Origin: Chitinophaga pendula
Lineage (GTDB): Bacteria; Bacteroidota; Bacteroidia; Chitinophagales; Chitinophagaceae
Assembly (NCBI RefSeq): GCF_020386615.1
Contig: NZ_CP077769.1
Span: forward strand, 7,241,501-7,305,500
DNA length: 64,000 nucleotides
Direction of reading: 5' to 3'
Below, piece by piece: positions 9,839-53,611 of this stretch. The translations under genes and the position numbers were made by a program. Position 1 is the first letter of the stretch. Each line of letters starts with the position of its first letter. The notes beneath the pieces are model-generated. The model was not told the DNA's origin. It worked only from the letters and a program-made list of their open reading frames with translations, and ran no database searches.

Positions 9839-9868
9839 CCATAACGTATTTACGGGATATAAAAGAAA

Positions 9869-9888
9869 AACCGCCTTAAAAGGCGGTT
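9869..9888 (+). terminator. Hairpin terminator after the CNNM/CorC gene
   Basis: AACCGCCT-TAAA-AGGCGGTT forms an 8-bp stem 30 bases after the stop codon. The T-rich tail is weak on the plus strand (TTACTTATTCC), while an A-run precedes it, so termination may be stronger for transcripts coming from the other side. Confidence 0.75.
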
Positions 9889-9982
9889 ACTTATTCCTTG
9901 TAATTCCACGTTATGAAAAAAATCTTTCAAACAAAAACTATAAAACGTATTGCTCCCCAATACTATTCATTTATCCCCAATT

Positions 9983-36995: not shown

Positions 36996-38011
36996 ATGTT
37001 CAAGCCAATTTTATTTTCTATTATAGCTTTCCTCACGATAAACACTACTCGTCTGTCCGCCCAGGATTGGGGTATCGGCAATACCCGTACGGAATATCGT
37101 GACAATGCCGGTGTCGGGACTAAATCCGGATTCTATGAATCGCAAAATCCTGTCAACTTCCCCCGGTGTATAGCAGTTGGTGGCTCCTGATGGATATACG
37201 ACATTCCAACACAGCTTATAATCATGCTATGCAGTTTGCCGGTGGTTTCTTCGATCAGCACCTATACTTCCGTAAGACCAACAACAGTGCGACCACACCC
37301 TGGTCGCGCGTATTGCTCGAAAGGGATAATAAAGTAGGCATCGGCACCATTGATCCCACTGCTGCACTACAGATAGGCGACTTTGCAACGGGAACGAATG
37401 CCCAGAAGATAGTGATGCCGGGAGTATACAACATTGAGCGGGTAGCCCTTGGACAGGATGGCAACGGGAATTCCTCTCTGGAGTTCGTAAACCACTCCGA
37501 CGCTAATGTCTCCTACGGTATTAAAGTAGGTACCAATATTGACAGGTACGGCGGTGGGTTATATATTGCGACAGCTGCATCTACTAACGATTACAGTAAA
37601 TTAAGTTATAGAGATCAACCTGCCATCTTTGCCAATGCTAACGATAATAGTGTCGGCATCGGTACCAATGCCACCTATGGATACCGGCTGGCCGTCGCCG
37701 GCCCCATGATTGCCGAACGTATCAAGGTAAAGCAGGTCACTAACTGGCCGGACTATGTCTTTAAAAAAGACTATCAGCTACCTTCCCTGAAAGAAGTGGC
37801 TACATTTATAGATAAAAACGGACACCTCCCGGGAATACCTTCCGCCGCCGAAATAGCCAATGACGGTATCGAAGTAGGCGACATGAATGCCCGGCTGCTA
37901 CAGAAAATAGAAGAAATGACCTTACATCTTATTCAGCAACAACAGGTTGTGGAAAAATTGCAACGGGAAAACGAAGCAATCCGGCAGCAATTGCAAAAGC
38001 TCAGCAAATAA
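36996..38011 (+). pseudogene. Tail-fibre-like secreted protein, disrupted by one frameshift
   Basis: The frame from 36996 starts with a signal peptide (ending RLSAQDWG) and reads GFYESQNPVNF, then meets a stop at 37188. The rest continues in another frame as SSWWLLMDIRHSNTAYNHAM and runs to 38011. Joining the two gives one coherent protein of about 338 residues with repeated KVGIGTIDP- and SVGIGTNATYGYRLAV-type segments and the common C-terminal module of Bacteroidota tail-fibre-like proteins (NWPDYVFKKDYQLPSLKEV, KNGHLPGIPSA) plus a coiled coil. The break falls in a run of five C at 37160-37164; six would restore the frame. It may be a real mutation, phase variation or a sequence error. Confidence 0.85.
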
Positions 38012-38132: not shown

Positions 38133-39473
38133 TCATGACACCGTTCCAGGCGCTGCGATTACTACTTCCGGCGTCGTTCCTGCCACCACCAGCAATGCAC
38201 AGAACCGATCATGTAAATGTGCCACCTGCGCAGGCGTATAAAAGCTTTGATGGTAATTCCACAGTAGGGTGCCTCCCTCGCCATCGTCAATAAGGATGAT
38301 CGACAGCGGATAATATACCAGGTCCAGGGGGTGATGTCCCTCAGCAGGTAGCTCCCAGGAACGGTTCTCAAACGCCTCATTCATATAGTTCAGGTGCAAC
38401 ATGGATCCGGACTGTAATGGCAGATCCCGGTAATCGTCATAGCTGAAGATCAGGTGCTTTAAAGACTGGATAAATGATAGATATACTTGCCGCACAAGCT
38501 GGCTGACCGTTTCGTGCCCTGCCAGTTGTATCCGCAGGAAAACCCCACCCATCAGGTGACCGATCAGGTGTTCCGTTTGCTTGCGGAAACGGTCGCCTGC
38601 GAGCGTAGAGATCATCAGATCGGATAATCCGAACTCCTGGTGAAATAATAGTGCAGCATTGGCGATCAGTACACCCAGCCGGCTTACACGTAGTTGCACT
38701 GCCAGCTGCTGTAATTGTGTATACGCATCCGCCGTCAGCCGTGCTACATACTGCATGGCCCCACCGGGTTGATGAAGGGTCGTTTTGATGAAGTCATCAT
38801 AGACCGCCGGGTCGGAAGGAACAGTTACGCCCTGCCCGGCCAATCGCCGGATCAGCCGCTCCTGCAGCTGCGATAATAACAGCGGTGATAGTTGCTGCTC
38901 CCAATACCTGATCCGCTCGGCCTGTTTGCCATACCATTCCTCATTTTTGACCCTGGAATAGTCCTTCAGCTGTAATGGCAGCACCGGCAAGGCAGGTACG
39001 GTACCCTGCAGCCATGCATCATAAGAGCGGGTGAGGTCCTGTATCAGCACCTTCATGGACCATTCATCGGATATAATATGGTGCATGGCCAGGAACACGG
39101 CTGTATGGTCCACATAAATAGCTACCAGCACCCGGAATAAAGGTCCCCGCGTCAGGTCACGCATCGCTTCCATCATATAGGGAGAAAGACCGTCGATCGT
39201 ATAAGGCTCCGGACGACTGTCCAGGTACGTCACCTCGAAACCTTCCGCTACAGTCCCCGCCAGCACCCGCTGGAAAAGTACTTCCTCCTGCATCATAAAT
39301 ACGGTCCGCAAGCTCTCATGCTGCTCCAGCACGGTCCGGTACGCATGCTCAAAAGCAATAGCATCAAAGTCGGTAAAGGTGACCTTGCCTATCAATACCT
39401 CAATGTCATATTGTTGGTGGATCTTCCAGTCTTCCTGCTGCTTAACAAACGATTCATGTAGGTCCTGGCTCAT
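38133..39473 (-). CDS. Free-standing NRPS-type condensation domain protein
   Basis: A 446-residue protein that is a single condensation (C) domain of the CoA/carrier-dependent acyltransferase superfamily. The catalytic motif HHxxxD is present as MHHIISDEWSM (about residue 130), preceded by LFRVLVAIYVDHTAVFLAM and followed by typical C-domain segments (HLIGHLMGGVFLRIQL, SLKHLIFSYDDYRDLP). No adenylation or carrier domain is fused. It would join a carrier-bound acyl group to an amine or alcohol. The separate ACP and AMP ligase encoded at 43780 and 46274 are probable partners. It is transcribed away from that operon across a 599-base gap. Substrate unknown. Confidence 0.88.
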   Translation of the reverse strand: MSQDLHESFVKQQEDWKIHQQYDIEVLIGKVTFTDFDAIAFEHAYRTVLEQHESLRTVFMMQEEVLFQRVLAGTVAEGFEVTYLDSRPEPYTIDGLSPYMMEAMRDLTRGPLFRVLVAIYVDHTAVFLAMHHIISDEWSMKVLIQDLTRSYDAWLQGTVPALPVLPLQLKDYSRVKNEEWYGKQAERIRYWEQQLSPLLLSQLQERLIRRLAGQGVTVPSDPAVYDDFIKTTLHQPGGAMQYVARLTADAYTQLQQLAVQLRVSRLGVLIANAALLFHQEFGLSDLMISTLAGDRFRKQTEHLIGHLMGGVFLRIQLAGHETVSQLVRQVYLSFIQSLKHLIFSYDDYRDLPLQSGSMLHLNYMNEAFENRSWELPAEGHHPLDLVYYPLSIILIDDGEGGTLLWNYHQSFYTPAQVAHLHDRFCALLVVAGTTPEVVIAAPGTVS

Positions 39474-40072
39474 AGTGTTGGGTTTTAAACGGTAATGGAT
39501 ATGCGCTTTCCGGTAGCCCGGATGCTCACTTAATGATACAAATTTTTACGCATAACCAAAACCACACCCTCCGTTGAAAACTTATTCCGCAAAAATTAAA
39601 GGCCGCTTGCTTTTTATAAGAAAAGGTTCTATTTTTAATGGCCCCCTGTGTTTGTAGTAGACCCGGTAACAACATTAATTGCGACAGATAACGTAAACAG
39701 GCCCCGGCCTCCGCGCTTAGTAACACGTATTTTGAACGATATTATTTCACAACCGCACCTACAGAGGTGCACGTTTTAATTAATCACAATATTGATGAGG
39801 ATGCCAGCGTAACAGGAGTGGACAAGAATGTTATCCAGGTGAACGTACGGAAAAGCAGTCCTTATGGAAACCACCAGATTCATAGTAGTATCGCATTTCA
39901 GCATTGAACCAGACACTATCCAATACATCAATCATACTGGAATGCCAACTTGTTAAATATTGCCTTTGATCGGAACACATCCGTATCCTGGCCGCCATAT
40001 GCTGCCATGATACCACTATCGCGCTGATCATTGGCTCATGCCTTTGTTTTATTTACCCTAAAGACAACGACC
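39474..40072. other. 599-base divergent intergenic region with short open stretches
   Basis: This gap separates the condensation gene (minus) from the GT2-led operon (plus) and must hold both promoters. A stop-free stretch on the plus strand at 39692-39907 (72 codons, no ATG; a GTG at 39767) reads like protein in parts (VHVLINHNIDEDASVTGVD) and could be a gene remnant. A 30-codon frame with its own ATG runs at 39864-39956 (METTRFIVVSHF, ending GMPTC), and a 17-codon frame (MAPCVCSRPGNNINCDR) starts at 39638. All could be chance. None is supported as a gene. Confidence 0.35.
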
Positions 40073-41296
40073 ATGGGAGGATCACTTAGTTGGTTAGCCT
40101 GGAGCATGATCGGCTTGCTATCACTCAAGTATTGTATCTATTTGCTCATCGCAAAAGTAAACGCCGGCAGAAAAAGATTGCAGACAACCCCCATTGTCCC
40201 GCCCATCTCTTTTTATAACGATACCCTCACGGTACTGATACCTGCTTACAATGAAGAAGTCACGGTAGCCGAAGTGGTCAATGCACTACTACACGACGAA
40301 AGAGGCGCGCTCCGCATCATTATTATCGACGACGGCTCCTCCGATCGTACACTCGACATACTCCAGACGCACTTCGCCGGCCACCCCAGGGTTACCATAC
40401 TTTCCCGGCCTAACGGTGGCAAATCTGCAGCCCTCAACTATGGTCTGCAGCAGGTGACCACCCCATTCGTCAGCATCATAGATGCAGATACCGTCGTACG
40501 GCCCGGGGTACTCTTCCGCAGCCTCTCCGTCTTCGACGACCCGCTGGTAGGCGCAGTATCCGGCAACATCCTCGTGGGTAACGCCACAGAAACCCTGCCC
40601 GTAAGATGGCAGAAGATAGAATACCTCACCCTCAACTACGAAAAATACATCCTCCAGCAACCCAACTGGATCGCCGTAATACCCGGCGCCTTGGGCATCT
40701 TCCGCACCAGCGCACTATACCGTGCCGGCGGCTTCCACGAACATGCCCTGACAGAAGACTATGATCTCACCGTCCGCATCATCCAACAGGGATATAAAGT
40801 GAAATATCTCCACATGGCCAAAGGACAGACAGAAGTGCCTGCCTCCTGGAAAGCCTTATACAAACAACGTCGCCGCTGGATATACGGTAACCTCCAGTCC
40901 ATGTTACTGCACCGCAAATGCTTTTACAGCAAACAATATCATAGCACCAACCGCATGGCCTTGCTCCTGGACCTCGTGTATAATAAACTGATGTTCGCCT
41001 CCGGCTGCCTGCTCGATATTACGGCGATCGTATCCCTGGTAAGCACATTTAGCTTGCCCGTATATTATGGCGCCTACCTGCTTATCGATAGCCTGCTGCC
41101 GCTATATATATTGTACCGCCATCATGCCGCTTTACGTAATTATATATGGCTGCTGCCACAACGCCTGGTATTCAGAGGTCTGACCACCATTACCATGATC
41201 GATGGCATGATTACATTGCTGCTCAATGGAAAACAAAAGTGGAATAAATTGGCCCGTACCGGCAATTTCACCCTTCAGGAAGCTGATAGTATATGA
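40073..41296 (+). CDS. GT2 family membrane glycosyltransferase (PgaC/IcaA-like)
   Basis: A 407-residue processive-type glycosyltransferase. An N-terminal membrane helix (about 7-28) is followed by the GT-A domain with VLIPAYNEEVTVAEVVNALL, IIIDDGSSDRT, the metal-binding SIIDADT, the acceptor motif TEDYDL and the QRRRW (QxxRW) motif. Three or so membrane helices close the protein. This is the layout of poly-GlcNAc synthases PgaC/IcaA and related enzymes; here it may build or transfer a sugar onto the product of the cluster. The ATG at 40073 is chosen over the TTG at 40031. Its stop overlaps the next start as ATGA (41293-41296), implying translational coupling. Confidence 0.92.
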   Translation: MGGSLSWLAWSMIGLLSLKYCIYLLIAKVNAGRKRLQTTPIVPPISFYNDTLTVLIPAYNEEVTVAEVVNALLHDERGALRIIIIDDGSSDRTLDILQTHFAGHPRVTILSRPNGGKSAALNYGLQQVTTPFVSIIDADTVVRPGVLFRSLSVFDDPLVGAVSGNILVGNATETLPVRWQKIEYLTLNYEKYILQQPNWIAVIPGALGIFRTSALYRAGGFHEHALTEDYDLTVRIIQQGYKVKYLHMAKGQTEVPASWKALYKQRRRWIYGNLQSMLLHRKCFYSKQYHSTNRMALLLDLVYNKLMFASGCLLDITAIVSLVSTFSLPVYYGAYLLIDSLLPLYILYRHHAALRNYIWLLPQRLVFRGLTTITMIDGMITLLLNGKQKWNKLARTGNFTLQEADSI

Positions 41297-43743
41297 ATCG
41301 AAAAAAAGGATATATCATTTTCGTCCCCTTCTTCCTTATCCAGCTTGCCTGGGTATGCAGGCAGGGATATGCACAAACAACACAACCACATGCAAAAGGA
41401 CGTGTGCTCGATCTTACTGGCAATGCCCTGCCACAGGTCTCCGTATCGCTGGTCAACACTGCCGACAGCCAGCATATACGGCATACACTGACCACACCAG
41501 ATGGCTATTTCTGGATACCGCTACCGCAGCAAGGAAATTTCCGGCTCCACATTACTGCCATCGGCTTTCAACCGTGGTGGTCCGCTCCCTTCGCCGCAGA
41601 AAATACCCGTCTCGATACCATTCGCTTGCAGGCCGCCATCTCTGCACTGTCAGCATTTACCGTCAAAGGCCGTAAACCGCTGATCACTCAGGAAGCCGGA
41701 AAACTGATCGTCAACGTCAGCAACAGCATCAATGCCCAGGGAGCCTCCGCATTCGAACTCTTACAGAAAACACCGGGTGTCGCCATCAGCAGGAACAATG
41801 ATATCGCACTCAATGGCAAAGGCGGCGTGCGCGTATTGATAGATGATAAACCGCTCTATCTCGAAACAGCCGACCTGATCGTCCTGCTGAAAGGTATGAC
41901 CGCTTCCTCCATCCGGTCTATCGAGATCATCCATCAGCCGGGCGCCCAATACGATGCCGCCGGCAGCGCCGGTATCATCAACATCCGCACCATCCGCAAC
42001 AAACAATATGGCTACAATGGCAACTTCGCCGCAGGTCTAGCTTATGGATATACCGTCAAACAAAATGCTGACTTCAACTTCAACTACCGCAAGCAGCGAC
42101 TGAACATTTTCGGTAACTACAGCCATCTCTTCGGACATTACGGTTATCGATACAGCCTCGATAGAAAAATAGGTGGACAACAATATTATTCCAATACCGT
42201 CGATACCGACAAACGGAATAAAGTAAATGCTACCCTCGGCCTGGATTACCAGTTGGATGAACACCAGACCGTAGGTGTTATACTGGGTGGCAATTTCCGC
42301 TTCGGACCGGGCATCACCAATACAGAGACCAAGATCATGAGCCGTAATCATCAGCTGGTAGAACAGATGCTCATGGCCGGTAATGACTACTATCACCAGG
42401 GCAATGCCCGATACACTTCCAGCATCAATTATAAATGGGAAGATACCACCGGGCACCTGCTCAGCCTGGATGCCGACTATGGCTACTTTGATGGCAGCGC
42501 CAAAAACCTGCAGCCTAACACTTATTATAATGCACAGTCAGGGCAGGTCACCAGCAGTAACCTGTACCGGACGCTCAACGGTACCGGTATCAACCTGTAT
42601 GCCCTCAAAGCGGATTATCATACTCCCTGGTGGAAAGGAAAATTACAAGCGGGTGCTAAATGGTCGTCCGTACGCTCCGCCAACGATTTTAACTTTTATC
42701 ACGTGACGCCATCCGCCGAAGTAGAAGACCCGCAACGTTCCAATGCCTTTACCTATCGCGAACAGGTATGGGCTGCGTATACGCAATATGACCGGCTCGT
42801 CGGTAAAATCAGGCTACAGGCCGGCGTGCGTGTGGAAAATACCGTGTCAAAAGGTATCTTACGATTTAAAGGTAGTAACAGCAGCAGCCAGCAGGAACAG
42901 GTGAATAACAACTATTTCAGCGTCTTCCCCTCCGCCGCTGTTACCTATACGCCTAATGAACACCATTCCTTTTCACTGTCATACAGCAGACGTATCGATC
43001 GCCCGGCGTATCAATACCTGAACCCTTTTGTATATCTGCTGGATGAATTGTCGTTCTGGCAGGGCAACCCCTTCCTGCAACCCCAATTCGCCAATCGATT
43101 TTCAGCAGAATATGGCTATAAAGGCCGCACATTTGTAACGTTAGCCTATACACGTACCAGTGACTTCAGCGCGCTGGTCACCGATACCCTGGAAACCAAC
43201 AAGATCGTGATGATACCGCGTAACCTGGGGCTGCAACATCACCTGTCGCTGGGTATCACACATACGCAGCAACTGTTATCATGGTGGCAGCTGTCTGTTA
43301 ACGGGCTCGCCTACTATGTGCAGAATAAAATGGCCTTCGACCAATACCGTGCCTTTAATCTCAATGCTACTGCCTGGACACTGAATTTACAGCAGACCTT
43401 CCAGCTGCCGCTGAAGATGGAAGCAGAATTAAGTGCCTTATACAACTCCCGGACTTTGATAGGTGCCAACGAACGGATCAAAGCCAACGGACAGGTCGAT
43501 ATCGGCGTGCAGAAAAAGATCATGGGAGATAAAGGGGCACTTAAATTGGCCGTCACCGACCTGTTCCTCACCAACCGCTGGGATATCACAAGCGGATTCA
43601 ATGACTTTACAGTCCATAGCTATGGCAGAGGCGAGTCCCGGCAGATAAGAGCTTCCTTCTCCTATCGCTTCGGCAGCAATACCATCAAAGCGCATCGCGA
43701 ACGGCAACAGGCATTGGACAACGAAACAGAACGTATCAAATAA
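41293..43743 (+). CDS. TonB-dependent receptor-like outer-membrane barrel (OMP_b-brl_3 type)
   Basis: An 816-residue outer-membrane protein with signal peptide (ending QGYAQ), a carboxypeptidase-like domain (about 35-105), a plug-like domain (FELLQKTPGVAISRNNDIAL, GKGGVRVLIDDKPLYL, IHQPGAQYDAAGSAGIINI) and a large barrel with PAYQYLNPFVYLLDELSFWQ. This is the OMP_b-brl_3 family rather than SusC. It lies in the middle of a biosynthetic operon, coupled to the GT2 gene, so it may move the product or its precursor across the outer membrane or re-import it. No ligand can be named. Confidence 0.92.
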   Translation: MNRKKGYIIFVPFFLIQLAWVCRQGYAQTTQPHAKGRVLDLTGNALPQVSVSLVNTADSQHIRHTLTTPDGYFWIPLPQQGNFRLHITAIGFQPWWSAPFAAENTRLDTIRLQAAISALSAFTVKGRKPLITQEAGKLIVNVSNSINAQGASAFELLQKTPGVAISRNNDIALNGKGGVRVLIDDKPLYLETADLIVLLKGMTASSIRSIEIIHQPGAQYDAAGSAGIINIRTIRNKQYGYNGNFAAGLAYGYTVKQNADFNFNYRKQRLNIFGNYSHLFGHYGYRYSLDRKIGGQQYYSNTVDTDKRNKVNATLGLDYQLDEHQTVGVILGGNFRFGPGITNTETKIMSRNHQLVEQMLMAGNDYYHQGNARYTSSINYKWEDTTGHLLSLDADYGYFDGSAKNLQPNTYYNAQSGQVTSSNLYRTLNGTGINLYALKADYHTPWWKGKLQAGAKWSSVRSANDFNFYHVTPSAEVEDPQRSNAFTYREQVWAAYTQYDRLVGKIRLQAGVRVENTVSKGILRFKGSNSSSQQEQVNNNYFSVFPSAAVTYTPNEHHSFSLSYSRRIDRPAYQYLNPFVYLLDELSFWQGNPFLQPQFANRFSAEYGYKGRTFVTLAYTRTSDFSALVTDTLETNKIVMIPRNLGLQHHLSLGITHTQQLLSWWQLSVNGLAYYVQNKMAFDQYRAFNLNATAWTLNLQQTFQLPLKMEAELSALYNSRTLIGANERIKANGQVDIGVQKKIMGDKGALKLAVTDLFLTNRWDITSGFNDFTVHSYGRGESRQIRASFSYRFGSNTIKAHRERQQALDNETERIK

Positions 43744-43779
43744 ACGCATCGATTTCATCTCATAAAAAGCAAGTCCATT

Positions 43780-44028
43780 ATGAAAGACAAAATCATCCAG
43801 GCCATCGAAAATGTAACAGGAGAGCCCGTTAACCTTGAACTGGCTAACAGCTCTACCAACCTGCTCGTCGACCTCGGCCTCAACTCACTTAACCTTATGC
43901 AGTTCATCGTGGAACTCGAAAAGGCTTTCGATATCGAACTCGATATAGGCGCCCTCGACCTCGCTACCTTTGATAGCCTGGATGCCATCGGCGCTTTCGT
44001 CGCAGAAAATCAGCAGAAGCATGCCTGA
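43780..44028 (+). CDS. Acyl carrier protein
   Basis: An 82-residue stand-alone carrier protein. The phosphopantetheine attachment serine is Ser36 in DLGLNSLNLMQF, the usual (D/N)SL motif at the start of helix II, followed by the acidic helix EKAFDIELD. It should carry an acyl or aminoacyl thioester. The adenylating ligase encoded at 46274-47611 is the likely loading enzyme and the condensation protein a likely user. No phosphopantetheinyl transferase gene is in the window, so a housekeeping one must serve. Its last 8 bases overlap the next gene. Confidence 0.94.
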   Translation: MKDKIIQAIENVTGEPVNLELANSSTNLLVDLGLNSLNLMQFIVELEKAFDIELDIGALDLATFDSLDAIGAFVAENQQKHA

Positions 44029-45097
44029 GCAGGACATACATAATGGCACATGTGCCATCTTGTCTTCCCGGCTGGGATTCGGGCAATACATCCCATCACT
44101 GCTGCTGCAGCAAAAGCTGCAAGCCGCCGGTCTCAACGCCACCCTTTCTTTTGTAGAAGATGGATATGCTATCGACAAAAAAGCCACCTTCGAACAGACA
44201 AAGGCCGCCTTCAATGGCAACCCCCACCTGGCGAAGGTAGCCGCCAGACTACAGCTGAACAAAGCAGGACTGATCGACCCTGCCGCTAAAGCTTCATGGC
44301 TGGCAGGCTGGCAGGCAGCGCAGTGTACTACCTTCCTCTGCTTCTCCGGCTACTGGGCCGAAGTGCTAATGGCGTATGCTCGTATTCGTGATATCGATAT
44401 CAGCTGTATCCTGATGGATGCAACCCCTTCGCCGGTATGGGAACCGCTCTTTAAGGATACCCATATCCAGCTGCACCGGTATCCGCTCTTCGACCTGGCC
44501 ACCGCGCAGTTCCATTATAAACTGGACATACCGCAGCCGCTACCGGTGCTGCCATTGGAACAGCGACCACCACAGGTATTAGCCCATGGTGGCGGATGGG
44601 GCATCTTCCAGCCGGTACAGCTGACTGCTATGCTGTCTGCCGGCCTGCAGGTACACTGTATCGTCAACGACGCCAAAGATGCCACATCGCCAGAGATACA
44701 CTACCTGCTGAACTTACCGCCCGAAGCCGGGGAACACAAGTTTCCTGCTCTACAAAGCCTGCAGGACCATACCCGGTTCACCGCTGCCGACCATCATCCC
44801 GTCCTCGACCGGATGGCAGCCTCCCGCGCCGTCATCAGCAAACCTGGCGGTATGACCGTTATCGATGCCCTGCTCACTGCCACCCCGCTGATATTCCTGC
44901 AAAGCATCGGTACACATGAACAGGCCAACCGTTCCTTATGCCTGCAACTGGGAATAGGCATGGACTGGGAAGATTGGGCCGCTACCGGCTACGCGCTTAC
45001 ACCATTGTTACAAATGCATCATATCCTGCGGGATATATATAAAAAGACACCAGACCTCGTGCCGATGCTCATACAACGGCTTAAACAACATCATTGA
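44021..45097 (+). CDS. GT-B fold glycosyltransferase (MurG/UGT-like)
   Basis: A 358-residue protein with a two-domain GT-B look. The N-terminal glycine-rich loop is SSRLGFGQYIPSLLLQQKLQ, the middle linker has VLAHGGGWGIF and the C-terminal donor site has VISKPGGMTVIDALLTATPL and HEQANRSLCLQLGIGM, as in MurG and related UDP-sugar transferases. The start ATG at 44021 lies inside the ACP gene (8-base overlap, ATGCCTGA), so the two are translated together. In this operon it would glycosylate a carrier-bound or released intermediate; donor and acceptor are unknown. Confidence 0.82.
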   Translation: MPEQDIHNGTCAILSSRLGFGQYIPSLLLQQKLQAAGLNATLSFVEDGYAIDKKATFEQTKAAFNGNPHLAKVAARLQLNKAGLIDPAAKASWLAGWQAAQCTTFLCFSGYWAEVLMAYARIRDIDISCILMDATPSPVWEPLFKDTHIQLHRYPLFDLATAQFHYKLDIPQPLPVLPLEQRPPQVLAHGGGWGIFQPVQLTAMLSAGLQVHCIVNDAKDATSPEIHYLLNLPPEAGEHKFPALQSLQDHTRFTAADHHPVLDRMAASRAVISKPGGMTVIDALLTATPLIFLQSIGTHEQANRSLCLQLGIGMDWEDWAATGYALTPLLQMHHILRDIYKKTPDLVPMLIQRLKQHH

Positions 45098-45117
45098 CCC
45101 TTTAAAACCCAAAAACG

Positions 45118-46290
45118 ATGCAACCCAAGACCACCCTGCATTATACCGCCCTGGGACTGCAGAAGATGAAAAGAAAAGTGCAGGCCATCCGGGAATGTGC
45201 CAAAAACAGAGCAGAAGATGCTTCCTATGCACAAGACCTGCCGGACGAAATTGGCCTCAAACTCACCAATCGCTGCAACCTCCGTTGTACACACTGCTTC
45301 CAATGGGATATCGGCGGATATCACCATAACCTCGATAAAGCAGCCTTGAAAAAAGATGGAGACTTGCGCATAGAAGTAGTCCGTGAACTCTTTGAAAAGA
45401 CAAGGGAGAAAAAATCCTCGCTCTATCTCTGGGGAGGAGAACCAACACTTTATGCCCACTGGGACGAACTCATCGCCCTCCTCAAGGAAGACCCCCGCGA
45501 CACGGTAATGTGTACCAATGGCGTCAACCTGCAAAACCAGATGGACTCCCTCGTCAGTGTATCCGAATGTATCAACATCCTCTTCAGCATAGAAGGACCA
45601 GAGGATATCCACGACAAGATCCGGGGTAAGAATACCTACAAAAAGATACTGGACAATCTCGACCTCCTGATGGCTCGTCAAGCCAACGGCGAATACAAAG
45701 GCACGATCTCCGTGGAAGCCGTGATCAGCGATGGTCTTATCCCACAGCTATACGACTTCTGTGAATTCTATGAGAAAAAAGGGATCGATTCTCTCTTCCT
45801 CAATTTTCCCTGGTACATCCCTGAACAGGTGGCCAACCAGATGGATGAATATTTCGAAGAGCGATATGGCTGGATGAACACCAGCAGAGGACAGCATAAT
45901 TCGTGGCACTCCTTCGACTTCCGCATCAGCCCTGAAATGATCGATGTACTTAAAGTGCAGATCGACAAGATCATGAAGAAGACCTGGGATATCCGTATCC
46001 GTTTCCATCCTGAGCTGAGCGATGATATCGATGACTATATCCTCGGTGGCACCAAACCGGCGCAGAAGAAGTCCCGCTGCCTGGGTATCTCCAACCGTAT
46101 CGACCTGCTGCCCAGCGGAGAGGTGACCCCTTGTAAGAAGTTCCCCGAATTCGTAGTAGGTAACCTGAATAACGGCTCCCTCGAAGAGGTGTGGCAAGGT
46201 GGCGACTATAAGAAGTTCAGGGAAGTACACAACAACGAACTGATGGCCATCTGTGCCAAATGCGAAATCTTATATGCCAATGGTATTTGA
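45118..46290 (+). CDS. Radical SAM/SPASM-domain enzyme
   Basis: A 390-residue radical S-adenosylmethionine enzyme. The iron-sulfur motif CxxxCxxC is CNLRCTHC (Cys53, Cys57, Cys60), followed by LYLWGGEPTLYAHWDELI, which provides the GGEP SAM-binding motif. The C-terminal SPASM part has cysteines in SRCLGIS, EVTPCKKFPEFVVGNL and ICAKCEILY that can bind auxiliary clusters. SPASM enzymes usually modify peptides, but no precursor peptide gene is evident; the neighbouring ACP suggests a carrier-bound substrate. Its end overlaps the ligase gene by 17 bases. The exact reaction is not known. Confidence 0.94.
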   Translation: MQPKTTLHYTALGLQKMKRKVQAIRECAKNRAEDASYAQDLPDEIGLKLTNRCNLRCTHCFQWDIGGYHHNLDKAALKKDGDLRIEVVRELFEKTREKKSSLYLWGGEPTLYAHWDELIALLKEDPRDTVMCTNGVNLQNQMDSLVSVSECINILFSIEGPEDIHDKIRGKNTYKKILDNLDLLMARQANGEYKGTISVEAVISDGLIPQLYDFCEFYEKKGIDSLFLNFPWYIPEQVANQMDEYFEERYGWMNTSRGQHNSWHSFDFRISPEMIDVLKVQIDKIMKKTWDIRIRFHPELSDDIDDYILGGTKPAQKKSRCLGISNRIDLLPSGEVTPCKKFPEFVVGNLNNGSLEEVWQGGDYKKFREVHNNELMAICAKCEILYANGI

Positions 46291-47611
46291 TCGGCACGAT
46301 CTCTACGGCATCTTCCGGCAACAGGTTATACTGTTCCCGGAAAGACCGTACTGTATCAAAGAACATACAATCACCTATCAGGAGGCGCACGATCAGATCA
46401 CCCGACTGGCTACGGCATTGCTGTGCAGGAACACGGACCATCACCCCGTGATCCTGCACATACGGTGCCACCAGCAGTGGCTGCTTTGCTGGTGGGCTTG
46501 CATACGGGCCGGCCTCGACGTGATCCTGCCGCCCGATATCCTCCCGTCAGACCAGCCCCATGCCTGGTTGCTCGACGAGGTGGCACTCGGCGCGCTGCAG
46601 GAAGTGTCGCTCACCGGGCTGCCTGCCGCCGTCAGACCGTCCGATATCTACTTTTACTCCAGCGGCACCACCGGCATGCCTAAACTGATCGGTAATACCA
46701 GCCATCAGCTGGTCTCCGCTTTGCAGGCATTGTACGCACAGCCGCCTGCTTACCTCCGGACCTGCCGGCAGGTATATCTCACTCCGCCGTTGTTTCACTC
46801 TTATGGTCTCAGTGCTATGCTGGAATACACCATGATGGGCGCAACCATTATCCTGCCGCCCGAACGGGGTACGGTAGGACCGGTAAAAGGGCTGTTCCGG
46901 AAAGATATCGCAGCTATCGTCGACAGCATAGAAGGAGTGCCTTACTTTTATACGCAGCTGAATACTATCCTGCCGCGATTGCAGCTGCCGGCATTACAAC
47001 ATGTCGGTTTCGGCGGCGATGCAGTGCCCGATGCCCTGCTGCATACCTGGCAGGCAAAATTTCCCGCAGTGTCCTATTCCGTTCGCTATGGCGTGACAGA
47101 AATACCCTCTGTCGTATGCCTACAAGAGTTCACCGATATCATGGAGGCTGACACCGCCCGCATACAACATTGGCTATCCATCTATAACATTTATCTGCAG
47201 CACGAGCCGGGCGATGAGGCTACGGGCACCGGCGAACTATATGTGGACTATCTCACTGCCAGCGGGGAAAAGATCACAGTCCCCACCGGTGATATCGCGA
47301 TGGCAACAGGCGACCACTTCCGGCTGGAAGGACGCCGTAAATCATTTTTCAAATACAAAGGATTTAAGATAAACCCGCTGCGTATAGAAAGCGTAATAAA
47401 GGCTTTTAACGGCGTGAAAGAGGCGAAGGTGTTTCTTACGGCACAAGCCCGTTTAAAGGCCGAATTTGAGGCGGATTCGGACGTTGCCGTGCCTGCGTTG
47501 AAAGCTTTCCTGGCAGCCACATTACCAGATTATATGCTCCCCGACGAACTGACCCGCGTCGATAATATCCCCCGCACCGCCTCCGGAAAGATCATCCGGC
47601 ATATTTATTAA
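46274..47611 (+). CDS. AMP-forming acyl/amino-acid ligase (adenylation enzyme)
   Basis: A 445-residue member of the ANL superfamily. The core motifs are the ATP loop YFYSSGTTGMPKLIG, the A5-type SVRYGVTEIP, the A7/A8-type TGDIAM...FKYKGFKINPLRIE and the C-terminal catalytic lysine in RTASGKIIRHIY. It activates a carboxylic acid as adenylate and should load it on the ACP of this operon. At ~445 residues it is shorter than NRPS A domains or fatty-acyl-CoA ligases (500+). The ATG at 46274 overlaps the radical SAM gene; the ATG at 46280 is an alternative. The substrate (fatty, aryl or amino acid) cannot be read by eye. Confidence 0.9.
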   Translation: MPMVFDRHDLYGIFRQQVILFPERPYCIKEHTITYQEAHDQITRLATALLCRNTDHHPVILHIRCHQQWLLCWWACIRAGLDVILPPDILPSDQPHAWLLDEVALGALQEVSLTGLPAAVRPSDIYFYSSGTTGMPKLIGNTSHQLVSALQALYAQPPAYLRTCRQVYLTPPLFHSYGLSAMLEYTMMGATIILPPERGTVGPVKGLFRKDIAAIVDSIEGVPYFYTQLNTILPRLQLPALQHVGFGGDAVPDALLHTWQAKFPAVSYSVRYGVTEIPSVVCLQEFTDIMEADTARIQHWLSIYNIYLQHEPGDEATGTGELYVDYLTASGEKITVPTGDIAMATGDHFRLEGRRKSFFKYKGFKINPLRIESVIKAFNGVKEAKVFLTAQARLKAEFEADSDVAVPALKAFLAATLPDYMLPDELTRVDNIPRTASGKIIRHIY

Positions 47612-47774: not shown

Positions 47775-47789
47775 ATGAAACGTTTATGA
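47775..47789 (+). other. Four-codon mini-ORF overlapping the PNGase F start
   Basis: ATG AAA CGT TTA TGA encodes Met-Lys-Arg-Leu and its stop overlaps the ATG of the next gene (ATGA). It may be a coupled leader peptide or chance; the main start at 47786 is supported by the signal peptide that follows it. Confidence 0.25.
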
Positions 47790-48925
47790 AAACCAGGTTT
47801 CTTACCCATGCCATTGCTGTGGCAGCGCTATCGTGTGTAATATATGCTTGCCAGAAGACAGCAAAAGACACTCTCCCTGATGCTAAAAACGCTACTGGCA
47901 AGCTGCTGGCCCAGGCAGCCATCACGCAGGATCAGACCATCAGGACCTTCGACAAAGAACAGATCGCCAATGGTGGTACCTCCACTAAAACCTTCCAGTT
48001 TCCGGCAGATTACAGCAACACCAAACAGATCCTCATGCACGTGTACCTCGACTGCCCCTCAGGTGGTTGCCCTGCCTGGGATGTATTTGCCAACATCAAG
48101 CTGGTCTCCGCCAACAGTAACCCCAACAAGAAATACAACTATGAGCTGGGGCGCTGGATCACTCCTTATGGAAAAAATAACAGCACCATTCCGGGTGGCT
48201 GGGTTATCGACGTGACGGACTTCCGCTCTCTCCTGGTAGGGGGCGTAGAGCTGCAAACACGCGCCGAAGTATGGAGTGGTACCTGGCTCGTGACCATCGA
48301 CTTTGAGTTCAAAGCGGGAACACCGGAGTATGCGTATTCCGCCGTAGCGCCTATCATGCAATACTGCGACTGGTCCACCGGCAGCAGCACGATCACTTTC
48401 GGCAAAGGGTCTGTCACCGCCAATGCCTACAACGGCAAACAGACAGGCTTCTCTATCAAACTGCCGGACAATGTGAAGAAGACAGCCTTCCGGACCATCA
48501 TCTCCGGCTGGGGACATGCGCAGCCCTATGCACCAGGTAGCCGCGGATTCGCGGAGTGGGCCTTCCGCACACATCAGATCAAGATCAATGATGTCAATAC
48601 CTTCCAGCATGATATGGGTAGCCTCGGCTGTAGCACCAACCCTAAAGTAGTGAAGAACCAGGGTGGCAACTGGACCGGTAACAGAGCCGGATGGTGCCCT
48701 GGTATGGAGGTGCCGGTAAGAAGCAATGTCCTCTCTAATCCCAATGCCGGACAGACCTTTAACTTCAACTACGCGCTGCAGGAAGATCAGTGGAATACAC
48801 AAAATATGGCAGAGAAATGGAGAGATAACGGCGCTAACCCCGACGGGGCGTATTATGCCGTATCTTCTTATGTGGTGATCCAAAGTAATACCCCCTTGAC
48901 CGATCCGGTTGTTACCAACAGATAA
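47786..48925 (+). CDS. PNGase F-like peptide-N-glycosidase, lipoprotein
   Basis: A 379-residue exported amidase related to PNGase F, which cuts the bond between N-glycan and asparagine. The signal peptide ends in a lipobox (VIYAC, cysteine about residue 22), so it is membrane-anchored. The N-terminal sandwich has CPAWDVFANIKL (Asp equivalent to catalytic Asp60) and YELGRWITPYG. The C-terminal sandwich has ISGWGHAQPYAPGSRGFAEW with a Glu where PNGase F has Glu206. It is separated from the ligase gene by 174 bases and probably has its own promoter. It would free N-glycans from host, plant or fungal glycoproteins; the link to the preceding cluster is only positional. Confidence 0.9.
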   Translation: MKTRFLTHAIAVAALSCVIYACQKTAKDTLPDAKNATGKLLAQAAITQDQTIRTFDKEQIANGGTSTKTFQFPADYSNTKQILMHVYLDCPSGGCPAWDVFANIKLVSANSNPNKKYNYELGRWITPYGKNNSTIPGGWVIDVTDFRSLLVGGVELQTRAEVWSGTWLVTIDFEFKAGTPEYAYSAVAPIMQYCDWSTGSSTITFGKGSVTANAYNGKQTGFSIKLPDNVKKTAFRTIISGWGHAQPYAPGSRGFAEWAFRTHQIKINDVNTFQHDMGSLGCSTNPKVVKNQGGNWTGNRAGWCPGMEVPVRSNVLSNPNAGQTFNFNYALQEDQWNTQNMAEKWRDNGANPDGAYYAVSSYVVIQSNTPLTDPVVTNR

Positions 48926-49015: not shown

Positions 49016-52000
49016 CTACTCTGCTTTCACAAAACGTTTGACGATCTGAACAGCCCCTTTGGTATACACGAGTGTGTATACACCAGGTGCCAGACGGGAT
49101 ACGTCTATATTTCGCTCATTAGCCATAGTATATAATACCAGGTTGCCGTTGCTATTCAGTATACGGATGTTGCCGCCACTGAGTACCAGCTTGGATTGCA
49201 GCTTCAGCTCCCGGGATACCGGGTTAGGATACAGCAGCAGGTCTGCTGTTGCTTCGGTCGTACCGGAAGGCTGGATGGTATTGGTCCTGGCGGATGCGCC
49301 GCTTACTTCTTCCAGCAGCCAATGCGCGCTTTGCCATACCGGGAAGATCGTTCCCTGCTGTGCATAACCTTTCTGTCCTTCGATATGGATATAGTTAGCG
49401 GACTGCCAGGCATTCCTGAATCGTACATAGCCATCACCGGTGCTTTCTGTTGCCCAGCGGGAGCTCTGCCATCCTGGTGTGCGGGTGGTTGCCGCTACAT
49501 AGTCCTGCAACTGTTCGATATGCATGTAATCGCCGGTACCACGGTTTTTGATCTCGTAGTAACCGCCGCCCACATCTTCCAGTGACCATTGATAGTTATT
49601 ATTGTTAGGCGTATTGCCATAGTTTACCTGGGTGCCGCCATCATAGAGATACACCGGCTGCCAGCGGTTTTTGATGCGGTAGTATTTGGTGCCGCTGCTG
49701 CTGCCTGTAACAGTTACGGAAGCGGTCGCCGTTTTACCCTGGTCTGTAGTCGTAACGGTAATGGTAGCTGTACCGGCTGCAATAGCATTGACGATACCAT
49801 TGCTGTTGACCGTAGCGACTGCTGTATTGTTCGACTGCCAGCTCACGGATTTGTTGGTGGCATTGGCCGGAGCTACGGTAGCACTGAGCTGCTGGCTGCC
49901 GCCTACAGATAGGTTCACCGTTGTAGGAGCAACGGTGACGCCGGTCACGGGTACATTGGTAGTACCACCACCTATGGTCACCTGTACCTGGTCGGCAGCA
50001 GTGAGAGTGCCATCGCTGACGGTGAGCTGGAATACGTAGGTGTTACCATTACTTAAACCGCTGATGTTGGCATTGGCGGTATTAGCGCCGCCGATGGTAA
50101 CGGTGGGGCCACTTACCTGTGTCCACTGGTAGGTAACGGCGCTGCCTTCGGGATCGGTGCCGGTGCCATTGATTGTAACGGTGGTGGTGCCTGCTGCCAA
50201 TGTGCGATCTGCACCTGCATCGGCAACGGGTGGTTGATTTACCGGGGTACCGGTACAGGAGGTCAGGTATACGGTACCGAATACACGGGGATCAGACCAG
50301 GCCATGGTGGTGGTAGCGAAGGTGGCCAGTTGGGCATCGCGTGTGCCACCATCGTCGTCGTTATCCAGCTGTATGTCCAGCCCTATGGGCTTGCCCGCTG
50401 CCGGCGTAGTGCCGATAGTAGACCAGGGGATAGCGACCTCCAGGTTGTAACCGCTGCCGGTAGCATACAGGCGATAGTTGATGCCGGTGGTCCTGGTTAC
50501 GGAGTTGGAGCCGACACGGATGGTGTTGTCGTTCCAGCGGAAGCCCAGCTGGAAGTCATTGGTGCCGTCATAGGTGGCGGTCTTGCTATTGTCGCCGTCG
50601 ATGAATACTTCGATCACATCATCTTCCCACCAGCTGGCGCCCGAGTCGTTGATCTTGTTGGCATCATTTACCTGTACCAGCAGATACAGGTTGTTATTGT
50701 CATACAAAGCACGCCACTGGCCGCCATAGCCGGCAGGTGTACCACCGATCAGCCGGTTGGTGATCGTCTTTATGGGGGCAATAGACCAGGCGCCTTCTAT
50801 CTGCTGATCGATCACAGGGGCAGTGCCATTCACCTGGGCGATCACAGGAGCAGTGCAAGGTGGCAGGTCATTGTCGGCAATGGTGATCACGGCTGCGGAG
50901 TCATTGCCTACCTGGTAACCTGTACCGGGACGTAATGCCAGCCGTAAGGTTTCCGGCCCTTCAAATATGTTGTCATCCACCGGTGTGATAGTGATGACCT
51001 GTGCGGGTTGTGTAGGTGTCAGTTGTATACTGCCGGTCAGTGGCGGTTGTGCAGTATAGTCATTGGGGCTGGCAGTACCGCTGATCACATAACTTACGGT
51101 GACGTTTTGTGTAAGTGCAGCAGCGCTGATACGGAAGGTGCCTGTATTACCGCCTTCTCCGGCAGCGGCATCCGTTGCCGTGATGTTAACGGCAGGCGCT
51201 ACGGTGATACGCCTGGTCGCGCTGAAATTGCCACTTTGCGTAGTCACCGTGATGGTAGCTGTACCCAGCCCTACGGTAGTAACCTTGCCAGTAGAGTCCA
51301 CTGTTGCCACGGCGGTATTAGAGCTGCTCCAACGCAGATTTTTGTTGGTGGCATCTACAGGTACTACCTGTGCTTTCTGGGTAAAGGAGATGCCCTGTGC
51401 GACCGTGGTATCCGTGGCTGGTTGCAATATTACGCCCGTTACCGGGATGTTGATATCGCGTATGATCAGCTTGAAGCTGTTGTTGCGGTTCAGGTAGGGG
51501 CCTGATTCTGTATTCCGGATGGTCAGGTTGTTGAAGACCACAGAGTCGGAGTTGGCTTCTGCATAAATGCCGAAGCCGCCATAGATATCCCGGGGGATAT
51601 CGCGTACCACAGGGTCTAATCCCGTACCGTCTATTAGTGTGTTGTTAAACACCATGTGGTGCAGGTTGTTGCCGTAAATCTGTATTGCATCACGTTGAGA
51701 ATTTAATATGGTGTTATTGTCAAACTGCATATTCAATACCCCTGTCTGCGAATAGATTTCGATAGCGCCCCGTTTCTGGTCCCACAGGTCATAGCTAGTG
51801 CCACAGCCATCGATGGTGTTCTCTGCTACCTTGATCACGTCGCCGGGATACTGGAAGGTGAAGCCGCTGAAGTCGTTGGTGAAACGGATCGCCGAGCCGC
51901 CAACGCCATCCCGTATGATATTGTGATGCACTTCATGGCCGGTACCACCGAAGAGGGCAATACTGCCGGCTCTCCAGTTGTTCTCGATCGTATTGTTGCG

Positions 52001-53329
52001 GAAGGTGTTATTGATGGCGTTCTGGTTATTGCCGGCATCTTTAGCCGGCCATACGGCCAGGCCGTCATCGCCGTTGTTACGCACACTGCTTTGTTCTACT
52101 GTGGAGTTGGAAGTACCCTGGCAGAAGTTGACCCCATCTGCATAGTTGTTGCGGATACGGCATTGGGAGATCATCATGTTGGTGGTGCGGTCTATCGGGT
52201 ACGGGGGATCGTAGCCACCTATCCAGAATCCGCATTCAAAGTGTTCTACCCATACGTGATGTACGGAGGAGTTAGCGCCGTAGGTACCCATGAACCCTTT
52301 GTACACCTTGTACATCTGACCCAGCGGATTAGGTTCGCCACCATATACCAGGCGGGCATTGTTGGCGGTGTTCATCGACAGGTGGGAGATCTCTACATTG
52401 CTGGCCCTGGCCAGTATGCCACCGGCAAATTGCTGGTTGGTAGAGAAGTAGATGTAAGTGTACCAGATGCCGGCGCCCTGTATTTTGACGTTGCTGACAT
52501 TCAGCAATAGTTTATTGCTAAGTAGGAAGCGGCCGGCGGGGATGTATACATGTTTGCCTTGAGCGGCGGCGGCAGCGATACATTGTGTGAAGGCTGCAAA
52601 GTCGTCGTTGTTATCGTCGGGTACCGCGCCGTAGGCGGTAACAGACAGGTAGTTGGCGGGGATGGGCAACGCTGCGGGAACGGGTTCCAGCTCTACGAAG
52701 TCGACACCGTAGGTGATGTTGTCGCCATTATCTTTTTTGATGGTCAGCTTGTCGCCTGCATTCAAGGGGGTATTCAGCCGGAAGTGTACCTCGTCGAAAC
52801 GCATGAGGATCTTACCGCTGCTGGAGGGTATCTGTTGCGGATCGGCGCCGGGGAAGTACTGATATGCCCAATAGGAGGAGAGGGCAATGTTCTGCACTTT
52901 CGTATCATTCACATACAGGCCGAGAGAGCCGGTGAGGCCGGTGCCGGTGCTGTTGTCCGGCATGGTGAAACGCAGATTCACGCCTTGTGCTGCCGCTGTC
53001 AGCGTCCATTCGACGAAGGCGCCATTGCCGCTCAGGCTTACATACTTTTGATGAGAAGCTTCTGAGGCGATGTCTGTTTGTACAAACTGTGGGGATTGCT
53101 GGAGGGAAGCGCCGCCGCCACGTACACCATCTTCTGATTCATAGCGGGTGTAAGGCAGGAGGTTGGCGCCCCGTGGAAGGCCGTCACTTTGTGCGTAAGC
53201 GGGAGGCGAAAAGAAACACAGCAAAAGCAAGGTACTGGTCAGGAGGTACCTGGTCACCGTTTTGCTGTAGCGAAGGGCTAGGCATACCTGGGGTATACCT
53301 CGTGGCTGTGTAAACCAGATGTTTTTCAT
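49016..53329 (-). CDS. GH87 alpha-1,3-glucanase, multidomain, type IX-secreted
   Basis: A 1,437-residue secreted enzyme. In order (approximate, from the ATG at 53329): signal peptide (1-47), an N-terminal carbohydrate-binding-like sandwich (55-215), a parallel beta-helix catalytic domain (225-640), a bacterial Ig-like domain (Big_2), a Calx-beta domain, a family 9-like carbohydrate-binding module (845-1040), a PKD-like domain, a second Big_2, a ricin-like lectin region (1230-1345) and a type IX secretion C-terminal domain (1365-1437, LLLYPNPVSRELKL...GVYTLVYTKG). The active-site aspartates are Asp398 in YADGVNF and Asp421/Asp422 in NNGDDGLAVW; the 23+1 spacing equals that of the three essential aspartates of Bacillus GH87 enzymes. 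It cuts alpha-1,3-glucan outside the cell. The start 15 codons upstream (GTG 53374) is less likely. Confidence 0.92.
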   Translation of the reverse strand: MKNIWFTQPRGIPQVCLALRYSKTVTRYLLTSTLLLLCFFSPPAYAQSDGLPRGANLLPYTRYESEDGVRGGGASLQQSPQFVQTDIASEASHQKYVSLSGNGAFVEWTLTAAAQGVNLRFTMPDNSTGTGLTGSLGLYVNDTKVQNIALSSYWAYQYFPGADPQQIPSSSGKILMRFDEVHFRLNTPLNAGDKLTIKKDNGDNITYGVDFVELEPVPAALPIPANYLSVTAYGAVPDDNNDDFAAFTQCIAAAAAQGKHVYIPAGRFLLSNKLLLNVSNVKIQGAGIWYTYIYFSTNQQFAGGILARASNVEISHLSMNTANNARLVYGGEPNPLGQMYKVYKGFMGTYGANSSVHHVWVEHFECGFWIGGYDPPYPIDRTTNMMISQCRIRNNYADGVNFCQGTSNSTVEQSSVRNNGDDGLAVWPAKDAGNNQNAINNTFRNNTIENNWRAGSIALFGGTGHEVHHNIIRDGVGGSAIRFTNDFSGFTFQYPGDVIKVAENTIDGCGTSYDLWDQKRGAIEIYSQTGVLNMQFDNNTILNSQRDAIQIYGNNLHHMVFNNTLIDGTGLDPVVRDIPRDIYGGFGIYAEANSDSVVFNNLTIRNTESGPYLNRNNSFKLIIRDINIPVTGVILQPATDTTVAQGISFTQKAQVVPVDATNKNLRWSSSNTAVATVDSTGKVTTVGLGTATITVTTQSGNFSATRRITVAPAVNITATDAAAGEGGNTGTFRISAAALTQNVTVSYVISGTASPNDYTAQPPLTGSIQLTPTQPAQVITITPVDDNIFEGPETLRLALRPGTGYQVGNDSAAVITIADNDLPPCTAPVIAQVNGTAPVIDQQIEGAWSIAPIKTITNRLIGGTPAGYGGQWRALYDNNNLYLLVQVNDANKINDSGASWWEDDVIEVFIDGDNSKTATYDGTNDFQLGFRWNDNTIRVGSNSVTRTTGINYRLYATGSGYNLEVAIPWSTIGTTPAAGKPIGLDIQLDNDDDGGTRDAQLATFATTTMAWSDPRVFGTVYLTSCTGTPVNQPPVADAGADRTLAAGTTTVTINGTGTDPEGSAVTYQWTQVSGPTVTIGGANTANANISGLSNGNTYVFQLTVSDGTLTAADQVQVTIGGGTTNVPVTGVTVAPTTVNLSVGGSQQLSATVAPANATNKSVSWQSNNTAVATVNSNGIVNAIAAGTATITVTTTDQGKTATASVTVTGSSSGTKYYRIKNRWQPVYLYDGGTQVNYGNTPNNNNYQWSLEDVGGGYYEIKNRGTGDYMHIEQLQDYVAATTRTPGWQSSRWATESTGDGYVRFRNAWQSANYIHIEGQKGYAQQGTIFPVWQSAHWLLEEVSGASARTNTIQPSGTTEATADLLLYPNPVSRELKLQSKLVLSGGNIRILNSNGNLVLYTMANERNIDVSRLAPGVYTLVYTKGAVQIVKRFVKAE

Positions 53330-53611
53330 AACATTTGTTTGTGAAATAATAAATAGAGGGCTGTCGGTGATCACTCTCCTGGGTTACAGGTGTCGGGTTA
53401 CTGGATCGCGCTGTGCTTCGTGGATCGGGCTTTCAAATATGGTATGCAGGCTCGTGGTATGCCTGCTACTGGTTTATGGGATGGGTTCACTAATCGTTGC
53501 GGTAACTCCTGCCCGGGAACAGCACAAAGGCTGTTCCCTCGCGGACAGGTGTCTTGGAGCCATACGTGGATGATGATTGCTGTTTTTTATATCACAAAGG
53601 CACTGAGCATA

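Follow-up and report, generated by a model that had tools for sequence, protein, structure and literature searches.

To date, the described system whose logic comes closest to the locus discussed here is the butirosin side-chain pathway (BtrI, BtrJ, BtrH and BtrN). The locus comprises seven genes at positions 38,133 to 47,611 of a 64,000-nucleotide stretch of the Chitinophaga pendula genome (contig NZ_CP077769.1); this whole stretch is referred to as the window. In both systems, a discrete acyl carrier protein (ACP) stands beside its own ligase. BtrJ loads glutamate on BtrI, and most relatives of the window locus also carry an ATP-grasp loader, whereas the window has an AMP-forming ligase instead. 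BtrJ is named among the ATP-grasp enzymes in an excerpt of a published account (PMC4431377). The auxiliary site of BtrN aligns with that of the radical S-adenosylmethionine (SAM) enzyme of the window, and a CxxxCxxC motif and one four-cysteine site appear to be common to both. A weak likeness to BtrH was seen in one member of a neighbor family (c7) of other loci, whereas the window has a condensation protein instead. Neither a BtrK decarboxylase nor a BtrO monooxygenase was found among the seven genes by Pfam, no search having been aimed at either. Butirosin is the nearest known logic; however, the window locus is not filed there because it has no ATP-grasp loader.

Free-standing parts of nonribosomal peptide synthetases (NRPSs) are also comparable. 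VibH is a single condensation protein, and CmnI (9uay) was among the profile matches; such parts share with the window a single condensation domain, its histidine motif, and a separate carrier and activating enzyme. Unlike them, the window adds a radical SAM enzyme and a GT-B glycosyltransferase in a conserved block, and no multidomain synthetase was seen nearby. The GT-B fold itself is that of CalG3, SnogD, MurG and MGD1 (GT1/GT28-type). The exosortase-A-associated genes likewise include an ACP, an AMP ligase and, in Sphingobacterium, homologues of hydrolases 1 and 2, although the ligase and the hydrolases score below the NCBIfam cut-offs. No description of the window's gene set was found in the open-licence literature, as judged by titles and the start of abstracts, which is weak evidence of absence.

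Comparison with other genomes showed that six of the seven genes form a real unit, namely those for the condensation protein, the GT2 glycosyltransferase, the ACP, the GT-B glycosyltransferase, the radical SAM enzyme and the AMP ligase. The features of the locus are as follows (aa, amino acids).

38133..39473, minus strand: stand-alone condensation-domain protein, 446 aa, divergent from the other genes (PF00668, 3.7e-34)
39474..40030: divergent intergenic region between the condensation gene and the GT2 gene
40031..41296, plus strand: GT2 glycosyltransferase, 421 aa from TTG, with hydrophobic segments (PF13641, 1.6e-32)
41293..43743, plus strand: OMP_b-brl_3 TonB-receptor-like barrel, 816 aa (PF14905, 2e-98)
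43780..44028, plus strand: discrete acyl/peptidyl carrier protein (ACP), 82 aa (PF00550, PP-binding, 4e-10)
44021..45097, plus strand: GT-B glycosyltransferase, 358 aa from ATG, with HGGGWG and SKPGG motifs and no Pfam match
45118..46290, plus strand: radical SAM enzyme, 390 aa (Radical_SAM 7.5e-21, SPASM 6.6e-13)
46274..47611, plus strand: AMP-forming acid ligase, 445 aa from ATG (PF00501, AMP-binding, 3.4e-27), the proposed ACP loader

The first-pass annotation had described a condensation gene divergent from six tightly packed genes, and all seven reading frames lie where it placed them, with Pfam families in agreement (for the GT-B protein, the fold). The overlaps are 4 bases between the GT2 and barrel genes (41293-41296), 8 bases between the ACP and GT-B genes (44021-44028) and 17 bases between the radical SAM and ligase genes (46274-46290), and the gaps are 36 bases between barrel and ACP and 20 bases between GT-B and radical SAM. 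Its description of discrete single-domain parts also holds: condensation, adenylation and carrier are separate genes in the window, not domains of one protein as in a modular NRPS. The Bacteroidota-type promoter pattern TTTG-N16-22-TANNTTTG has three matches in the window and none in the divergent region 39474-40030; as many window matches arose in 7 of 100 shuffles.

Within the genus, the radical SAM gene was found in two of 79 genomes (E<=1e-20), and the GT-B profile (E<=1e-10) recovered this pair and no other. So did searches with the AMP ligase (E<=1e-40) and the condensation protein (E<=1e-50), in each of which no more than 21 candidates were scored per genome. The second cluster-bearing Chitinophaga genome (G321) holds the divergent condensation gene followed by GT2, ACP, GT-B, radical SAM and ligase genes in the same order as the window, with identities of 53% for the condensation protein, 50% for GT2, 45% for GT-B, 80% for the radical SAM enzyme and 50-52% for the ligase. 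A close GT2 ortholog occurs in this genome only; the four other genomes of the genus with a match at E<=1e-60 have GT2-like domains of 34-36% identity inside frames of 1124-1173 aa. In wider samples, the radical SAM gene was found in 3 of 294 genomes of the family (at E<=1e-20, and in one case as a 27% relative) and in 2 of 395 genomes of the phylum (E<=1e-60). Further 64-71% relatives (P0003-P0010) lie mostly on metagenome contigs.

The radical SAM profile matched 353 relatives in genome contigs, and the analysis went on with the 80 best (60 of them Paenibacillus by title). Together with the loci of genomes G321, G253, G103 and G674 and two Streptomyces plasmids, these make up 86 loci, a set that excludes short loci and any from the window's own genome. 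The plasmid loci are the best two of 16 plasmid records that match the radical SAM protein, and in one of them, a record without annotation, the genes were named by family models. Of the 86 loci, 69 combine the radical SAM gene with genes for the ACP, a ligase and the GT-B protein; they come from Bacteroidota, Bacillota, Actinomycetota, Cyanobacteriota and Margulisbacteria. This four-gene core is kept across phyla, and together with the six-gene set of G321 it bears out the suggestion of the first-pass annotation that the genes belong together. By the family models, the ACP is present in 81 loci and the GT-B protein in 75, and in 80 the ACP gene shares the strand of the radical SAM gene and lies no more than 3 kb from it. 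The GT-B protein of a Streptomyces plasmid belongs to the window's GT-B family (1.2e-74).

Seventeen loci are short of the full core: L004, L005, L011, L017, L052, L053, L092, L093 and nine of the P. tyrfis/elgii type (L025, L029, L036, L040, L047, L050, L057, L068 and L078). In three of these (L053, L078 and L093) the sequence ends on the very flank expected to carry the missing gene, and L092 is only distantly related (27%). L017, L053 and L093 lack nothing but the separate ACP. In L017, from Paenibacillus, one open frame at 8647-9918 is a Gfo/Idh/MocA oxidoreductase fused to an ACP, hinting that this dehydrogenase may also act on a carrier-bound substrate.

The most telling evidence on the loading of the ACP comes from the slot beside it. 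In Bacillota, the position between the ACP and GT-B genes is usually filled by a family of about 420-530 aa that had no Pfam match in the one member scanned; its profile matches solved ATP-grasp ligases (8ynd, 4.8e-11; PGM1, 4.5e-6). The Streptomyces protein that adjoins the ACP belongs to the same family (hhalign, 8.5e-58). Over the 86 loci, the ligase is of the ATP-grasp type in 63 and an AMP ligase in 11, with both in two; one of the 11 is weak (Lysobacter L083, 203 bits only). Two unrelated acid-activating families thus alternate in one slot beside a constant ACP and GT-B protein, which strongly implies that the ligase works with the ACP as its loader, as the first-pass annotation had proposed. 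The radical SAM tree (45 rows, with near-copies removed and L092 left out) places the window in a Bacteroidota clade of 10 rows with a support of 100/100; seven of these rows have an AMP ligase, three have neither ligase, and none has an ATP-grasp ligase, while 31 rows outside the clade have the ATP-grasp type only. The module has probably moved between phyla more than once, since the Bacteroidota genomes G253 and G674 carry the ATP-grasp ligase and sit elsewhere in the tree. However, several of the branches concerned are long, and according to the tool's own warning their placing is unsure.

The ligase of the window has its motifs intact (SGTTG, YGVTE, TGD and KYKG). Amino-acid-activating domains carry an aspartate at a position where this protein reads FHSYG, and an acid without an alpha-amino group is therefore the more likely substrate. 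Its match to DltA (NF003417) is 56 bits against a cut-off of 476, and its match to the exosortase-associated ligase TIGR03098 is 65.4 bits against 592.35. In the ACP, alignment places the phosphopantetheine serine at S36 in GLNSL, with NSL intact. All 13 NCBIfam carrier models listed for the ACP score below their cut-offs; the match to the fatty-acid carrier TIGR00517 is 23.6 bits (cut-off 70.45) and that to DltC 22.7 bits (cut-off 68). The protein is thus not confidently a fatty-acid or teichoic carrier, an identity that would have spoken against its pairing with the ligase.

The first-pass annotation had named a radical SAM/SPASM enzyme. The radical SAM part stands, the CxxxCxxC motif (C53, C57 and C60) being intact, and the structure model has a pLDDT of 93.8. 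A full SPASM site has seven cysteines. In 38 aligned rows, the invariant cysteines are those of the motif, C132 and, in the SPASM region, only four others (C321, C339, C379 and C382), a stretch that aligns in a profile comparison with the one-cluster Twitch auxiliary site of BtrN; outside this site, the match to BtrN is weak. Twitch is described in part of a published text as a shortened SPASM domain with one cluster (PMC9012708). Given the four cysteines and the alignment, the enzyme is probably of the one-cluster Twitch type and not a two-cluster SPASM enzyme.

The structure model of the GT-B protein (pLDDT 90.6) has CalG3 (3oti) as its best Foldseek match (E 2.6e-11), followed by others including SnogD, MurG and MGD1, with TM-scores of up to 0.63 and identities of 9-14% among the 50 best matches listed. 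The C-terminal sequence matches a processive diacylglycerol glucosyltransferase (9wde, 2e-8). GT2 has the intact DD/DAD/TED/QRRRW motifs of the processive type and two hydrophobic segments, and may start at ATG 40073 instead of TTG 40031. The condensation protein has an intact HHIISDE motif, and its ortholog in G321 matches PF00668 at 4.2e-37.

Taken together, the six genes probably encode a pathway of discrete, unfused proteins that builds a small glycosylated metabolite on a carrier protein. In such a pathway, the AMP ligase would activate a carboxylic acid and load it onto the ACP. The Twitch-type radical SAM enzyme would oxidize or rearrange the acid, most likely while it is tethered, a chemistry suggested by the tight linkage of the ACP to the radical SAM gene. 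The GT-B protein would add a sugar, and the condensation protein would form an amide or an ester, possibly on an amino sugar, and thereby free the product from its carrier. GT2 may extend the sugar part or anchor it at the membrane. The substrates, the tethered reaction, the order of the steps and an acylated amino-sugar glycoside as the product are what we infer from homology and gene neighborhood. Transfer of the ACP-bound acid to an amine would fit the arrangement in Chamaesiphon (L063), where the core is followed, after the GT-B gene, by an NRPS protein of 1353 aa with condensation, adenylation, carrier and thioesterase domains (C-A-carrier-thioesterase).

A broader reading is more tentative, at somewhat less than an even chance. 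The loci would form a family that crosses phyla, with a constant ACP, GT-B protein and Twitch radical SAM enzyme, interchangeable loaders (an ATP-grasp or an AMP ligase) and interchangeable releasers (a condensation protein, an NRPS termination module, a ketosynthase-III-like protein or a faintly BtrH-like protein), the radical SAM enzyme and the glycosyltransferase acting on a carrier-tethered acid. If this is true, the family, so far without a description, carries out both radical chemistry and glycosylation on a carrier protein that stands free. One coherent biosynthetic module that ties radical chemistry to a carrier protein would then be common to Bacteroidota, Bacillota, Actinomycetota and others, and its compact core would offer a handle for genome mining toward a new class of metabolites. 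The exchange of one ligase family for an unrelated one in the same position makes substrate loading a directly testable prediction.

Several observations weigh against these assignments. The functions are drawn from homology and gene neighborhood, and the family models for the ACP, the GT-B protein and the ligase were built from rows of the same 86 loci in which they were counted. The core is not obligate, because the nine P. tyrfis/elgii-type loci retain a ketosynthase-III-like gene besides those for the ACP and the radical SAM enzyme, yet have no GT-B or ligase gene in their flanks (L078 being cut upstream), and both Sphingobacterium loci lack the ligase, L005 also the ACP. Condensation regions occur in only seven of the 86 loci, in two of them only inside NRPS-type proteins, and four of the seven supplied sequences to the model used for counting. 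On the supporting side, condensation proteins accompany the core in G253, where condensation, ACP, ATP-grasp, GT-B and radical SAM genes form one run, in Agaribacillus, at a distance of about 4 kb from the radical SAM gene, and in the two Streptomyces plasmids. Close counterparts of GT2 are confined to the two Chitinophaga loci, with weak matches (25-33 bits) in three others; the GT2 of a Streptomyces plasmid locus, considered as the same gene, was rejected at a BLASTP E of 1.6 against the window GT2. In addition, the top Foldseek ranks for the model of the radical SAM enzyme go to peptide-modifying enzymes (SuiB, SkfB and anSME), and the 50 best matches listed do not include BtrN.

That ranking of the peptide maturases SuiB and SkfB is what would favor a system for ribosomally synthesized and post-translationally modified peptides (RiPPs), in which a short precursor peptide would be the target of the radical SAM/SPASM enzyme and the remaining genes would play no part. 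Many of the best 25 of its 74 NCBIfam matches, all below cut-off, are peptide maturases as well. However, no PqqD-type peptide recognition domain was found in the protein by Pfam at E<=1, the gaps of 20 and 36 bases in the run leave no room for a precursor gene, and the enzyme's constant neighbor is the ACP; together with four invariant auxiliary cysteines in place of seven, this makes a RiPP system highly improbable. Modification of a surface polysaccharide or glycolipid, with the ligase and ACP supplying an acyl group that the condensation protein places on the sugar of the transferases, is a less remote but still quite doubtful explanation. The processive-type motifs and hydrophobic segments of GT2, whose best NCBIfam match is PgaC/IcaA (TIGR03937), would agree with it, as would the TIGR03098 match of the ligase and the hydrolase homologues of Sphingobacterium. 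Yet the PgaC match reaches 131.9 bits against a cut-off of 422.3, the ligase and hydrolase matches are likewise below their cut-offs, and the GT-B protein is most like antibiotic glycosyltransferases; the lists of open reading frames (ORFs), in which no search by family was made, showed no evident flippase, polymerase or exosortase.

It is unlikely, though the least so of these alternatives, that the module supplies a larger nonribosomal peptide with an unusual starter or side-chain unit, the condensation protein handing this unit to an NRPS or to its peptide. An NRPS gene (adenylation, carrier and condensation; 1165 aa) lies about 500 bases 3' of the ligase on the same strand in G321, the Chamaesiphon protein follows the GT-B gene, a 1316-aa frame of NRPS type lies before the exporter in Paenibacillus L022, and the C. 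pendula genome itself has at least 150 carrier-domain matches. On the other side, none of the window's ORFs of at least 150 aa has the length and look of an NRPS, as judged from the ORF list, in which not each one was scanned. Moreover, 79 of the 86 loci have no condensation-model match in their flanks, and 60 carry two ABC-2-type permease genes (two members scanned). The small glycosylated metabolite is the preferred product of the six genes.

The neighbors of the core in other loci bear on that product. A PIG-L-type deacetylase family adjoins the ACP in six loci (one member scanned; PF02585, 4e-16), PseB-like and MurU-like families are each present in six loci (in both families, the single member scanned has NCBIfam matches below cut-off), and an aminotransferase with a PseC-like match below cut-off lies near the core in other loci. 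These neighbors suggest that the product may have an amino-sugar part. The c7 family is present in 35 loci; one scanned member matches BtrH_N weakly, below cut-off (E 0.057), and a second had no Pfam match. Also counted among the neighbors of amino-sugar type are Gfo/Idh/MocA proteins in 31 loci (one member scanned) and GH3 proteins in 17 (two members scanned). Ketosynthase-III-like proteins occur in 21 loci. In Sphingobacterium, the homologues of exosortase-A-associated hydrolases 1 and 2 (L004:11191-12887, below cut-off) adjoin the radical SAM gene. A second block, next to the core in the Bacteroidota locus L007 (5839-10302), encodes an NAD_binding_4 reductase-type protein, a beta-ketoacyl synthase (PF00109) and a phosphopantetheinyl transferase (PF01648), which suggests a longer hybrid pathway there and in L006, similar by clustering. 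A small L007 protein was considered as an ACP and dropped, as it matched no carrier family in Pfam.

The outer-membrane barrel, which the first-pass annotation had made part of the system as its exporter or re-importer, did not keep this place, while the unit and the loading ligase of that interpretation did. In the window, the overlap of its gene with that of GT2 makes co-expression of the two likely. However, the barrel is missing between GT2 and ACP in the G321 locus (L090), the only syntenic relative found, and relatives of 41-43% identity occur in 13 of 78 other genomes of the genus, 12 of which have no cluster; the one in G321 lies at a distant place in the genome. On these grounds, the barrel was left out of the core pathway and is probably a local addition. 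A 44% relative in Sphingobacterium faecium, about 4 kb from the ACP of that genome, first seemed to be a linked export gene. The next paralogs there reach at most 31%, and the best paralogs of the window barrel in its own genome 32-33%, but the link was rejected because 44% is hardly above the values seen in the genus.

Several features flank the locus. Directly 3' of the unit and on the same strand, a PNGase F-like protein is encoded at window positions 47786-48925 (PF09113, 5.1e-10; PF09112, 4.9e-05), which as far as seen stands outside the unit. It is followed at 49016-53374 by a large alpha-1,3-glucanase-like protein with CatAgl domains, a CBM9 and a Por_Secre_tail sorting domain. On the other side, at 36996-38011, two overlapping frames (36996-37190, with a start that by eye resembles a signal peptide, and 37166-38011) look like a gene split by a frameshift; a 50% relative, over 40% of its length, adjoins the condensation gene in L090. 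The host genome is rich in NRPS-type genes, with open frames of up to 13,590 aa, and its carrier-domain matches (150 of 236 candidates scored) lie at C1:2.74-2.87 Mb and elsewhere.

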